Positions 27,760 through 61,683 of a stretch of DNA of 64,000 nucleotides are shown piece by piece. The notes under the pieces were generated by a model. It did not search any database. It was not told the DNA's origin and was given only the letters and a program-made list of their open reading frames with translations. Source of the stretch: an uncultured Bacteroidales bacterium. Lineage in GTDB: Bacteria > Bacteroidota > Bacteroidia > Bacteroidales > UBA932. The stretch lies in NCBI GenBank assembly GCA_944326235.1, contig CALVDH010000002.1, positions 1-64,000 of the forward strand, written 5' to 3'. Within the stretch, counting starts at the first letter, position 1; every line of letters starts with the position of its first letter. The position numbers were made by a program, and so were the translations under genes.

Positions 27760-29013
27760 CTATTTGCTGTGGTGTCTTTCCCTGCGCTTGAGCTCAGTGG
27801 GCTCGATGGTCATCCTGACTCCCTCGAGCAGGGTTGCCACACCCTCGGACTTCTCGCCCTTGTGACGGCAGTCCTCGCAGTGGCATTCGTTGTGATACTC
27901 AGGCGGTTCTGTATAGGTCGTAATGACACCTTCGAAGTTGCGGAGCACTACCTTGCCTGGCGACTGGGAGATAACATACTGAGGCATGACCGGAGTCTTG
28001 CCGCCACCGCCGGGAGCGTCCACCACGAATGTGGGCACTGCAAAACCGGAGGTATGTCCCCTGAGGCCTTCGATGATCTCGATACCCTTCGAAACGGGGG
28101 TACGGAAATGCTCCAGGCCCATCGACAGGTCGCACTGGTAAATATAATAAGGTCTCACCCTCATCTTGACAAGTTCATGCACCAGATGCTTCATCACATG
28201 CACGCAGTCGTTGACTCCGCGCAGGAGGACGGACTGGTTGCCGAGGGGTATTCCGGCATCGGCGAGCCTTGCGCAGGCAGCGGCCGACTCGGGGGTCACC
28301 TCGTTGGGATGGTTGAAATGGGTGTTGAGCCAGATCGGGTGGTACTTCTTGAGCATGTTGCACAGGTCGTCGGTAATCCTCTGAGGGCATACGACGGGAG
28401 TACGGGAGCCGATGCGGATAATCTCCACATGGGGGATGGCCCGCAGCCTCTTGATGATGTACTCCAGCTTTGCGTCGCTGACCATCAGGGCGTCACCACC
28501 GGAGAGAAGCACGTCGCGGACTACGGGAGTCTTCTCGACGTACTCTATGCACTTCTCTATCCTGTCATTGGGCGACTCGGCGTCCTTCTGTCCGGCGAAA
28601 CGGCGGCGGGTGCAGTGACGGCAGTACATCGAGCACATGTCGGTGATGAGCATCAGCACTCTGTCGGGATACCTGTGGGTAAGGCCGGGTGTCGGGGAAT
28701 CCTCGTCCTCATGCAGGGGGTCCAGCAGGTCCTCGGGGGCCTGGAAGGTCTCGGCGGCCGTGGGTATGGCCTGTCTGCGGATAGGACAATAAGGGTCATC
28801 CGGATCAATCAGGGACAGGTAGTAAGGAGTAATGGCCATCCTGAGGGTGGAGAGAGTCTTGCGGACTCCCTCCTCTTCCTCGGGCGTGAGCTTTATGTAT
28901 TTCTTGAGCTGGTCGAGAGTCTCTATGCGGTTCTTGACCTGCCATTTCCAGTCATTCCACTGTTCGTCGGTCACTTCCGGGAACAGGACTTTCCTACGCG
29001 ATGTATTCACCAT
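27760..29013 (-). CDS. kamA: L-lysine 2,3-aminomutase (radical SAM)
   Basis: A 417-residue radical-SAM, PLP-dependent enzyme converting L-lysine to L-beta-lysine, the first pathway step. The 4Fe-4S cysteines are C127, C131 and C134 in CSMYCRHC. The PLP lysine is expected in FVVDAPGGGGKTP. The C-terminal HNECHCEDCRHKG supplies the cysteines of the zinc site that long lysine mutases have. That tail and the length separate it from the shorter EF-P-modifying EpmB. Confidence 0.95.
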   Translation of the reverse strand: MVNTSRRKVLFPEVTDEQWNDWKWQVKNRIETLDQLKKYIKLTPEEEEGVRKTLSTLRMAITPYYLSLIDPDDPYCPIRRQAIPTAAETFQAPEDLLDPLHEDEDSPTPGLTHRYPDRVLMLITDMCSMYCRHCTRRRFAGQKDAESPNDRIEKCIEYVEKTPVVRDVLLSGGDALMVSDAKLEYIIKRLRAIPHVEIIRIGSRTPVVCPQRITDDLCNMLKKYHPIWLNTHFNHPNEVTPESAAACARLADAGIPLGNQSVLLRGVNDCVHVMKHLVHELVKMRVRPYYIYQCDLSMGLEHFRTPVSKGIEIIEGLRGHTSGFAVPTFVVDAPGGGGKTPVMPQYVISQSPGKVVLRNFEGVITTYTEPPEYHNECHCEDCRHKGEKSEGVATLLEGVRMTIEPTELKRRERHHSK

Positions 29014-29025
29014 GGGCAGGAAGGA

Positions 29026-30072
29026 TTAGGCGTAGAGCTCGGTGAATATCTTTCTGAGCTTCTCGCTCTCGCGGAGCTCCTGCAGGGTAATCTCGGCGTG
29101 GCCCTTGGTGTAGCCGTTGCCCACGAGCATGGTCACGTCGCTGCCTACGCCCTCTGCTCCTAGAGCCGCCTTGGTGAAGCTGGTGGCCATGGAGAAGAAG
29201 TATACCAGACCGGTGTCCTTGGTGCAGAGGATAGAGGTCATCTCGGTGTCGGGGATGTTGACGTTGTTGATGGTGATGTCGCACATCTGGCCTCCGGTGA
29301 GCTCCTCGATCTTCTCGAGTACGGGTACGGGCTGGGTAGCGTCGGCTGAGAATACATAGTCGCAGAAGCCGAGGTCCTGCAGTCTCTTGGTGCTCTTCTC
29401 GCTGTGGCACAGACCGATTACCTTACCGGTCACGCCTGCGCGTTTCTTGGCCTCATAGCAGCAGAGCATTCCTGACTTGCCGCCGGCTCCGATGATCAGA
29501 ACTGTGTCGCCGGGCTTAACCAGCTTGGCTGTCTGGGCGGGAGCACCGGCGACGTCGAGTGCGGAGAGGGCGAGCTTCTCGGGCAGGTCAGCGGGAATCT
29601 TGGCGTAGATACCGCTCTCGAAGAGGATGGCCTTGCCGTCGATGTCCACCTGGTCCACATCGGCGCGGATCTCCTTGATCTTATCAATGCGCAGGGGAGT
29701 CAGGGACAGGGATACAAGGGTGGCGATCTTGTCACCGGGCTTGAGGTCGATCTTGTCCTTGAGGGCATCTCCGATCTTCTCTACTGTACCGAGGAGCATT
29801 CCGCCTGAACCTGTCCAGGGGTTGCGGTGCTTGCCCTGCTTGGCCACGATGTCGAACATGATCTCCTTGATCTTCTCGGGGTCGCCGCCGGCGCGGTTGG
29901 ATATATCTGTGAAGGAAGCAGAGTCGATGTTGAGAGTCTGGACGTCGATGAGAATCTCGTTGTCATAGATTTCGTCCATGTTGTTGTCTAACTTGTTTGC
30001 GGGCTGAGGGAGGACTCCCTTGGGTTCGATTACTCTGTGAATTCCGTATTTATTTCCGTGTTTCTGTGCCAT
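29026..30072 (-). CDS. kdd: L-erythro-3,5-diaminohexanoate dehydrogenase
   Basis: A 348-residue NAD(P)-dependent dehydrogenase that oxidatively deaminates 3,5-diaminohexanoate to 5-amino-3-oxohexanoate. The Rossmann loop is VLIIGAGGKSG, with downstream GLCHSEKSTKRLQDLGF and ITINNVNIPDTEMTSILC blocks typical of Kdd. The N-terminal MAQKHGNKYGIHRVIEPKGVLPQPA matches the family opening. It has 12 bases to kamA and 43 to kce. Confidence 0.92.
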   Translation of the reverse strand: MAQKHGNKYGIHRVIEPKGVLPQPANKLDNNMDEIYDNEILIDVQTLNIDSASFTDISNRAGGDPEKIKEIMFDIVAKQGKHRNPWTGSGGMLLGTVEKIGDALKDKIDLKPGDKIATLVSLSLTPLRIDKIKEIRADVDQVDIDGKAILFESGIYAKIPADLPEKLALSALDVAGAPAQTAKLVKPGDTVLIIGAGGKSGMLCCYEAKKRAGVTGKVIGLCHSEKSTKRLQDLGFCDYVFSADATQPVPVLEKIEELTGGQMCDITINNVNIPDTEMTSILCTKDTGLVYFFSMATSFTKAALGAEGVGSDVTMLVGNGYTKGHAEITLQELRESEKLRKIFTELYA

Positions 30073-30115
30073 AATTTTTTGATTTTAAGATAGTTGATTA
30101 ATTTGTTTTAAATTA

Positions 30116-30943
30116 TTACTGAAGAGGTCTGAGAGACAGTATCTGACGTGCCTCGGTCGGGGTGGCGATGTCGCGTCCGAACTCGCGGGCGATGCGGACC
30201 ACCTTCTCCACTAACTCTCCGTTGGAGCGGGCCAGAACTCCCTTGCTCAAATAAACATTGTCCTCGAAACCTACCCTGACGTGGCCTCCGTCGATGATGG
30301 CGGCTGCAGCTAAAGGGAACTCGTAGCGGCCGATACCCGCTACGGTGTAAGTCGCGTCGGCGGGAATACTGCCGCGCAGGAAGACGAAGTCGCGGAGCTC
30401 ACCGCTGATACCTCCGTTGACACCCATCACGAAGTCGAAGTGCATGGGAGCCTGGATATAGCCCTTGCGGTGCAGCCTGAGCGCCATGTCGATCATGGAC
30501 TTGTCGAAGACTTCGAGCTCAGGTTTGATACCGCGCTCTATCATCCTCTGTCCGAAATACTTGATAGTGTTCTCCGTGTTCTCGAAGATGTCGTCTCCTC
30601 CGAAGTTCAGAGTACCGCAGTCGAGGGTGGCCATCTCGGGAAGCAGCTCTGTGGGCTGCAGTCTCTCGTCGTTGGTCATGCCCACGGCTCCTCCTGTAGA
30701 GGGCTGGATGATGACATCGGGACACTCCTTCTTAATAGCGTCGATGATGACTTTGAAACGGTCCTTGCTCTGAGTGGGTGTACCGTCATCCTCACGCACG
30801 TGAAGGTGAATGAGGGAGGCGCCGGCATTGTAGGCCGACTTGGCCTCGCGGACACACTCCTCTACGGTGTAAGGTACCGCGGGATTGTGCTCCTTGAGCA
30901 CTTCCGCACCGCATATTGCGGCCGTGATTATCAATTTTTCCAT
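30116..30943 (-). CDS. kce: 3-keto-5-aminohexanoate cleavage enzyme
   Basis: A 275-residue zinc TIM-barrel enzyme of the BKACE family (DUF849). It condenses acetyl-CoA with 5-amino-3-oxohexanoate and releases acetoacetate and 3-aminobutyryl-CoA. The zinc motif HLHVRE (in GASLIHLHVREDDG), VIIQPSTGGAVGMT and GGHVRVGFEDNVYLSKG are characteristic. Neighbouring kdd and kal settle which BKACE activity this is. Confidence 0.93.
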   Translation of the reverse strand: MEKLIITAAICGAEVLKEHNPAVPYTVEECVREAKSAYNAGASLIHLHVREDDGTPTQSKDRFKVIIDAIKKECPDVIIQPSTGGAVGMTNDERLQPTELLPEMATLDCGTLNFGGDDIFENTENTIKYFGQRMIERGIKPELEVFDKSMIDMALRLHRKGYIQAPMHFDFVMGVNGGISGELRDFVFLRGSIPADATYTVAGIGRYEFPLAAAAIIDGGHVRVGFEDNVYLSKGVLARSNGELVEKVVRIAREFGRDIATPTEARQILSLRPLQ

Positions 30944-60334: not shown

Positions 60335-60360
60335 TTCCCCAAAGTGTGAAAAACAGCGCT

Positions 60361-61566
60361 ATGAGACAGATAATAACCCACTTCACCGACGATGACCTGT
60401 ACAAGTTCACGATGTGCTGCGCGGTCATTGACAATTTCCCCAGAGCCCAGGTAAAATACTCATTCACAGACCGTGACGACACTGTCTACCCTGCCGGCTT
60501 CGCAGACGAGCTTTCCAGACAGATTGCCGCTCTTGAGGATGTCGTCATCACTCAGGAGGAAATAGACTTCATGAAGCGCAGGTGCAGCTACATCCCGGGA
60601 TGGTTCTACAACTACCTGAAAGGCTACCGCTTCGACCGCCGGTGGGTGCAGGTGAGGCAGGATGAGGCCGGACACCTTGAGATAGACATCGAGGGCAGCT
60701 GGGCCGACACCATTCTGCTGGAAGTGAAGATTCTGGCCATCATATCGGAACTCTTCTACATCTTTACCGGGGAGTGCCGCAATTTCGACTACAGCGCATA
60801 TTATGACAGGACATACCGCAAGGCGGAGCGGCTGCTGGGAGCCGGCTGTGTATACAGCGATTTCGGCACCCGCCGCAGGGCCTCATTCGAGGCTGAGGAT
60901 ACGGTAGTCAGGGCAATGAAGGACTGCGCGGGAAGCCGTCAGTGGCCCGGGCGCTTCGTAGGCACGAGCAATGTCTACTTAGCCATGAAATACGACCTCA
61001 TCCCGGTCGGCACCATGGCCCACGAATTCATCTGTGCCATCGGCGGCATGTACGGCCCGCAGATGGCCAACCACATAGCCATGGACTGCTGGAGGAACAC
61101 TTTCCGGGGTGCCCTCGGCACCTTCCTCTACGACAGCTTCGGCTGGGACATCTTCAGCCTGAACTTTTCGGAGGACTTCGCCAACCTGTTCAAGGGGTTG
61201 AGAGTGGACAGCGGGGACAACCGCGAGCAGCTCATGCGCATAGTAGACAAGTACCGCTCCCTCGGCATCGATCCGCGCACCAAACAGGTGATATTCAGCA
61301 ATGCCCTGGACGTGGACCACGCCCTTGAGATCCAGAGTTACGCCACGGACTACTGCCAGCCGTCCTTCGGCATAGGCACACACTTCACCAATGACTTCGA
61401 CGGTGTCCGCCCCATGAACATCGTCATCAAGCTCATCGCCGCCAAGATTACCGAGTCCTGGTCCTTCTACAACGACACCTGCAAGCTCAGCGAGGACACC
61501 GGCAAGCACACCGGCCGCCCCGAAGTCGTGAAGCGCTTCATGCAGGCCCTCAATTTCCACGAATAA
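60361..61566 (+). CDS. pncB: Nicotinate phosphoribosyltransferase
   Basis: A 401-residue NAPRTase that makes nicotinate mononucleotide from nicotinate, PRPP and ATP. The N-terminal IITHFTDDDLYKFTMCCAVIDNFP, DFGTRRRASFEAED, GTSNVYLAMKYDLIPVGTMAHEF (phosphorylated-His region) and LRVDSGDNREQLMRIVDKYRSLGIDPRTKQVIFSNALD are diagnostic. Length is typical of the bacterial short form. It uses the product of the nicotinamidase at 13.1 kb. The ATG is taken rather than a GTG five codons earlier. Confidence 0.94.
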   Translation: MRQIITHFTDDDLYKFTMCCAVIDNFPRAQVKYSFTDRDDTVYPAGFADELSRQIAALEDVVITQEEIDFMKRRCSYIPGWFYNYLKGYRFDRRWVQVRQDEAGHLEIDIEGSWADTILLEVKILAIISELFYIFTGECRNFDYSAYYDRTYRKAERLLGAGCVYSDFGTRRRASFEAEDTVVRAMKDCAGSRQWPGRFVGTSNVYLAMKYDLIPVGTMAHEFICAIGGMYGPQMANHIAMDCWRNTFRGALGTFLYDSFGWDIFSLNFSEDFANLFKGLRVDSGDNREQLMRIVDKYRSLGIDPRTKQVIFSNALDVDHALEIQSYATDYCQPSFGIGTHFTNDFDGVRPMNIVIKLIAAKITESWSFYNDTCKLSEDTGKHTGRPEVVKRFMQALNFHE

Positions 61567-61574
61567 CGCACCCA

Positions 61575-61683
61575 GCAGTAAAATAAACACTCTGACAGGA
61601 CTTGCCGCCCTCGGCACTAGAGGGAGGGGCCCGCCACGCAGTGGTGGGAGGGCCTGGTCCTGTCAGAGTGTTTATTTTACTGC
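61575..61683. repeat. 27-bp perfect inverted repeat around a structured 55-base loop
   Basis: The arm at 61575-61601 (GCAGTAAAATAAACACTCTG plus ACAGGAC) is exactly complementary to 61657-61683. The loop itself can fold into TGCCG/CGGCA and CCCGCCAC/GTGGTGGG hairpins, giving a three-way cruciform. It lies between the converging pncB and nhaD genes. It may act as a bidirectional terminator, since both arms contain T/A-rich ends, but the stem is much longer than the other terminators of this window. Confidence 0.75.

Follow-up and report, generated by a model that had tools for sequence, protein, structure and literature searches.

What is a perfect 27-bp palindrome doing between two convergent genes of an uncultured Bacteroidales bacterium, and how do its two arms come to match base for base? 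In the window, that is, the whole 64-kb stretch of DNA that was analysed, the exact arms (61575–61601 and 61657–61683) enclose 55 nt and lie between pncB and nhaD, as the first-pass annotation of this DNA had described. The features of the locus are the following.

60346..61566, + strand: pncB, nicotinate phosphoribosyltransferase; 8 nt from its stop codon to the left arm
61575..61601, + strand: left arm of 27 bp that complements the right arm perfectly; sequence specific to this locus
61602..61656, + strand: structured core of the A type, common to other copies; two hairpins in the fold
61605..61627, + strand: core hairpin 1 (GCCCTC / GAGGG), from the fold and from covariation across subfamilies
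61628..61654, + strand: core hairpin 2 (CCCGCC .. GGTGGG), from the fold and from covariation
61657..61683, + strand: right arm, 27 bp, with the plus-strand tract TTTATTTT, mirrored in the left arm as AAAATAAA
61692..63056, - strand: nhaD-type sodium:proton antiporter, in convergent orientation to pncB; stop codon 8 nt from the right arm

The antiporter matched the model NF038006 above its cut-off and TIGR00775 below its cut-off. With gaps of up to 200 nt, the window holds three perfect inverted repeats of at least 12 bp, the 27-bp one being the longest by far (the runners-up have 15 bp), and about 1e-9 repeats of this length are expected by chance (64000 x 200 x 4^-27). The RNA fold of the palindrome region had a minimum free energy of -76.3 kcal/mol vs -39.9 (sd 3.8) in shuffles, none of 200 being as low, and the opposite strand gave -75.5. 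Both folds consist of a long stem capped by two hairpins, in agreement with the earlier description of the loop. None of the Rfam covariance models matched the region at E up to 1. At 61604–61624, AGCC/GGCT (here TGCC/GGCA) encloses a CCCTC that can pair with the downstream GAGGG; a pseudoknot or a switch between two hairpins is possible at these positions, and covariation was seen in both helices, from 2 and 1 of 16 sequences.

The palindrome is a single copy of an element that is non-coding, dispersed and roughly 85–180 bp long and belongs to Candidatus Coprenecus, a genus placed in the Rikenellaceae. A search for further copies, proposed by the first-pass annotation, found about 14 in the genome to which the window belongs (G000; 2.47 Mb in 63 contigs) and more than 100 in the genus. 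In G000, BLAST with the 129-bp region returned further copies of the inner segment with 82–90% identity over at least 50 bp, and the genome also carries a B-type relative with a longer second hairpin and a small third one. A cores were present in 17 and B cores in 11 of the 19 genus genomes; family-wide, A cores were found in 22 of 119 genomes, and outside the genus in 14 of 111. When the core pattern was run against 84,980 species genomes, from which close relatives of the window genome may be missing, 48 stretches matched, with titles naming Candidatus Coprenecus, uncultured Bacteroidales and one Candidatus Merdivivens. The A-type pattern gave 91 matches, reduced to 87 full-length copies. 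The core-oriented set used below comprises 105 copies, which fall into 46 site groups; at least two genomes are represented in 20 of these groups. The set omits four of the 27 B/C-type loci, namely those that the pattern did not recover (L009, L166, L168 and L183), while L211, L217, L233, L234 and L267 were taken out of A and counted as B where recovered. Literature searches outside subscription papers found no account of this element or of such a family.

Other repeats were seen alongside it. A second dispersed family (GTCGACTGCTGCGTTGTC...CTTGCATTCGGCC), found at L010 (G000 contig C2, about 69714–69830) and at L368–L387, also has locus-specific inverted arms, which are perfect in some copies. 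At L007 (G000 contig C21, 396–550) the second hairpin of the element is replaced by another repeat (AAGTCCTCCCTAAGGGAGGATTTAGG...), and G013 carries a similar nested copy.

The conserved, repeated part of the element is its structured middle, and the arms vary from locus to locus and pair within each locus. The comparison of arms and loop in relatives, also put forward by the first-pass annotation, thus returned a conserved, repeated loop and locus-specific arms. A repeat search with the whole palindrome can miss a family whose sole common part is the loop. Changes in the core are compensatory: in an alignment of 16 chosen sequences with a hand-written structure, arms included, 97.0% of cells pair, and double-sided changes numbered 27 cells vs 5.8 in shuffles. 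Twelve of the 14 G000 copies with arms pair over 22–31 bp with at most two mismatches; the arms of the other two, L002 and L031, are decayed or bulged. At L002 (contig C12) the inverted arm extends over the final codons and the stop codon of the neighbouring gene. The G000 arms differ at each locus, save for the inner 6–10 nt, which often resemble TCTGAAAAG, and in one large A subtype the locus-specific arms follow a conserved asymmetric step (TCTTTTCTCGTTG vs TCTTTTCGACTG). For the pncB–nhaD copy, a 20-mer from the arm has no second match in G000 when up to 3 mismatches are allowed. The outer arms (13–40 nt from the core) match perfectly over a stretch of 8 bp or more in 74 of the 87 A copies, vs 185 of 2863 mismatched pairs made of left and right arms from different sites. 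Beyond the genus, the core lies between inverted arms in 17 of the 20 regions fetched (arm score at least 12). In G084, which belongs to another genus, seven copies at unrelated sites have one 23-bp arm consensus in common, with variants mirrored on both arms in two copies and a one-sided variant in one, so that the arms are carried along as the element spreads and both change jointly afterwards. The arms between pncB and nhaD are the same in the independent assemblies G000 and G002, which speaks against an assembly artefact for the arms.

Flank searches identified ten sites at which a relative has an empty allele, and at none of the ten does the empty allele contain the long arm palindrome. 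The arms and the core are therefore gained or lost as one. The sites are listed below.

pncB–nhaD site: empty in G009 and G016
L008 site: empty in G002 and G007
L012 site: empty in G002
L031 site: empty in G016
L011 site: empty in G007 and G016
L010 site: empty in G016
G006_L265 site: empty in G018
G002_L261 site: empty in G000, G003, G005 and G009
Cluster-6 site: empty in G012
G005_L239 site: empty in G000, G002, G009, G016 and G007; filled in G003 and G005

Where G000 holds the whole arm-core-arm unit at the L008 site, G002 has a small palindrome, ACGGCCGT; given that the site is filled with the same arms in G003, G009 and G010, the G002 allele may be a precise loss. At the same site in G016 (L334; contig C11, about 28690–30210), approximately 1.3 kb of other sequence lies between the two genes. 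Target-site duplication is inconstant, the flank overlap being about 0, 2, 3 and 5 nt in four cases, and a search of four genomes for the donor of the G005 insertion found no second locus with its outer arms. Taken together, the copies in the genome and the genus and the empty sites in relatives support a dispersed palindromic element that is gained and lost. The proposal of a mobile palindromic element in the first-pass annotation stands to that extent.

The differences between loci in arm sequence could also mean that the core is a mobile element that enters the loops of existing hairpins, such as terminators, the arms being host stems. In G007 the pncB arm holds AGCAGTCAC, which also occurs in the ordinary pncB terminators of four of the five distant relatives having one, and this points to insertion into a terminator there; the G007 arms at pncB–nhaD may have come with a separate insertion or be a rewritten copy. 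In cluster 6, a single site is occupied by cores that differ in type or orientation, and several arms are terminator-like (e.g., AAAATCCAGC / GCTGGATTTT), both points in favour of host stems. Nevertheless, the empty alleles at the ten sites lack the arms, no other perfect inverted repeat longer than 15 bp is found in the window, and unrelated sites in G084 have the same 23-bp arms, so that we consider entry into existing hairpins improbable.

At two of the empty sites, G006_L265 and L011, about 7 nt at the outer end of one arm already exist in the empty allele, which suggests that the palindrome grows outward; at the other eight sites, arm sequence is absent from the empty allele. Counting L008 with its small palindrome, an outer arm is in part already there at three sites, a point against the explanation that we favour below. 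The two sites could alternatively be taken to mean that insertion itself makes the arms, one target flank being copied inverted to the other side, as the second arm there is a new inverted copy. However, this concerns only about 7 nt at two of ten sites, and the G084 arms travel with the element, making it very unlikely that the arms arise in this way.

Arm-to-arm conversion, one of the ways in which the first-pass annotation had thought such arms might be maintained, gains support from mirrored arm changes and from core flips. Restricting the count to copies with an arm score of at least 14 (61 of 105), we found 21 variable arm positions in nine gap-free ortholog groups, 10 of them mirrored in every member and 11 not; five of the 14 groups, being identical or gapped, lie outside these 21 positions, and the pncB group, whose 15 mirrored differences may reflect unrelated arms, is among those five. 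Paired cells at the variable positions amounted to 49 of 60, compared with a permutation mean of 34.4 and a permutation maximum of 49. Given the 11 unmirrored positions and a permutation maximum equal to the observed value, the correction is partial and the test a modest one. Pairwise comparison of orthologous arms, which left out 12 B loci, gave as its best case G000 vs G009, with three mirrored and no single changes between flanks that are 95.9% identical; G000/L012 vs G007/L174 showed seven mirrored changes and one single change, the differences being multi-base, with transversions and shifts. Over four bins of falling flank identity, mean arm identity was 0.964, 0.931, 0.897 and 0.768 and mean core identity 0.979, 0.978, 0.972 and 0.940, a slower fall than that of the arms.

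Gene ends can also be palindromic. In the left flank of L246 (G013 contig C28), a coding 3′ end forms one arm of a perfect 21-bp palindrome. This gene end (...GGAGTTTCTCT.CATTAG) has a small imperfect hairpin in G012, and the palindrome is absent from the orthologs in G000, G003, G014 and G018. The G013 palindrome shows an arm-copying step outside the element. It had been considered as evidence for the copying of target flanks on insertion and was set aside, because G012 shows it to be a separate palindrome grown from a small hairpin. At L014 (G000 contig C10, near 45768) a gene end is followed by its inverted copy (GGAGAATTATTAGTGC / GCACTAATAATTCTCC), which adjoins another REP-like repeat (CCACCCCCTCCCAACCCTCCCC).

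Could selection for pairing account for all this by itself, the element being a structured RNA or terminator with compensatory arm mutations and no copying at the DNA level? Many orthologous arms are unchanged, some over flanks of 84–93% identity, and selection alone would also give this. Where the flanks are more than 90% identical, orthologous arms are conserved like coding flanks, and covariation occurs within the core hairpins, as selection alone would have it. The mismatches in gap-free arms are G-T or A-C in 16 of 23 cases, which is expected for single transitions, some of them tolerable as RNA wobbles, and this transition-type bias suits selection as well. Multi-base mirrored changes with transversions and shifts, such as those between G000/L012 and G007/L174, are in contrast left unexplained, and gap-free arms with strict Watson–Crick pairing over 18–31 bp in 45 of the 105 copies also argue against it. 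Such lengths exceed the stem that terminators need.

Flips of the core bear on the same question. In 9 of the 20 multi-genome site groups, the core faces one way between its flanks in some copies and the opposite way in others, although some of these flips bring different subtypes together at a site and could represent replacements rather than inversions. In G000 vs G003, the arms are identical at 29 of 29 positions and the 107-nt core is reversed (99% identical) between flanks of 93.4% identity; in G000 vs G002, the core direction differs between flanks that are 96.7% identical, and one additional flip with the arms kept was seen at another site. These genomes are metagenome assemblies in many contigs, in which short-read assembly could mis-orient a core between equal arms. 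Selection for pairing alone leaves core flips unexplained. Both orientations at one site might instead reflect a phase-variable invertible switch, with a site-specific recombinase flipping the core at the inverted repeats. Site-specific inversion was rejected because the inverted repeats differ between loci and hence no single recombinase site is common to them; in addition, the core has no long ORF and, at the pncB–nhaD copy, no promoter-like match, which leaves such a switch with a negligible probability.

Under a longest-ORF rule, the 105 copies comprise 44 in convergent, 45 in tandem, 11 in divergent and 5 in unclassified contexts, and their median distance from gene 3′ ends is 32 nt. Most A-type groups, partly through shared ancestry, have a T-tract about 18–21 nt from the core (A-rich on the left), which at the pncB–nhaD copy lies in the right arm. 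These contexts and the tract suit a predicted terminator or 3′-end stem for the A copies, this one included, and they are what selection alone would produce, but the B-type copies lack the T-tract. A simple terminator scan showed no excess, with one site vs 0.6 expected from shuffles. From its sequence features, the pncB–nhaD copy is plausible as a bidirectional terminator, the alternative that the first-pass annotation had offered. It resembles intrinsic bidirectional terminators in having a stem with an A-tract and a T-tract between convergent genes; unlike them, the element has a 27-bp stem, a 55-nt structured cap and a repeated core. Considering both sides, we regard selection without DNA-level copying as an unlikely explanation, less remote than the others weighed above.

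The explanation that we favour, and hold to be somewhat probable, is that the element is REP-like and palindromic, that template switching rewrites each of its arms from the other, and that its core is flipped likewise. A replicating strand would fold back at the hairpin and copy one arm from the other (template switching, or quasipalindrome correction); such copying would keep the arms paired and let them grow outward, a switch across the spacer would flip the core, and each copy would drift to its own arm sequence with pairing kept. More tentatively, the A-type copies, including the one studied here, might persist at the 3′ ends of genes in the role of bidirectional terminators or 3′-end stems, and the element might have been spread by a REP-associated tyrosine transposase. 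In the excerpted text of PMC8604942, template switching between inverted repeats brings about both arm homogenisation and spacer inversion, and that of PMC8794818 proposes that template switching creates and maintains stems. Because arm homogenisation together with core inversion is this published signature, arm-to-arm copying is preferred over compensatory selection alone, and selection may act besides it. The mechanism of these two papers predicts mirrored arm changes (here partial, 10/21), arm extension and spacer flips (here 9/20 groups, the arms being kept in the examples). The published cases, as far as the excerpts go, are single-site events in yeast coding genes or RNA stems, whereas here a whole dispersed family is involved, with spacers of 55–108 nt. 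Many long perfect inverted repeats of unrelated sequence in one genome are also seen in the perfect coding palindromes of Nematomorpha mitochondria (PMC6649704), which, as far as the abstract tells, have no common core and are not a dispersed element.

Among the known repeats close to it are the REP/BIME/REPIN systems, mobilized by RAYT (TnpA-REP) transposases, which are short intergenic palindromes often just past stop codons or between convergent genes, and the element likewise has many intergenic copies biased to gene 3′ ends. It differs in its greater length and in combining a conserved middle with outer arms that vary. It may also lack a consistent GTAG or CGTC tag at its foot: the foot tetranucleotides are CTAG or CTTG in A cores and CATG in B cores, and L047, a C-type copy, is the only one with GTAG ahead of its first hairpin. 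In the excerpted text of PMC3733652, GTAG repeats are listed outside the Bacteroidetes and CGTC repeats within them. In Bacteroidetes, TnpA-REP subclass 2.6, whose "atypical secondary structures" have copies at other genomic positions according to the part of PMC6006769 consulted, is alike by description in phylum and in having structured repeats with genomic copies. Relatives of Y1/REP-associated tyrosine transposases occur in 15 of the 19 genus genomes; each of these 15 has 2–18 A cores and the four others have 0, 0, 1 and 1, counts that are uncorrected for kinship. The two transposases scanned matched the NCBIfam REP-associated tyrosine transposase model below its cut-off. Unlike RAYT genes, the transposase genes are not flanked by the element on both sides, an A copy lying near 1 of 20 transposase loci and on one side only. 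The element also differs from a MITE, since no terminal inverted repeats are common to all copies (outer arms are shared only among the G084 copies) and the target-site duplication is not constant.

Quasipalindromes are known to undergo template switching in laboratory strains, in yeast genes and in RNA stems. In the family described here, empty sites, mirrored changes and flips occur among dozens of orthologous hairpins in species at 75–99% identity, which would let the rate, direction and limits of template switching be measured in natural bacteria. The family also cautions that covarying arms in bacterial stems are no sure sign of selection at the RNA level. A bolder possibility, which we put forward as doubtful, is that of a self-rewriting mobile palindrome: once landed, the hairpin would, through repeated copying between its arms, turn its neighbourhood, even gene ends, into perfectly paired arms peculiar to each locus, with core flips as a by-product. 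If this is true, self-rewriting families would keep a natural record, across whole genomes, of the template switching that happens in wild bacteria.
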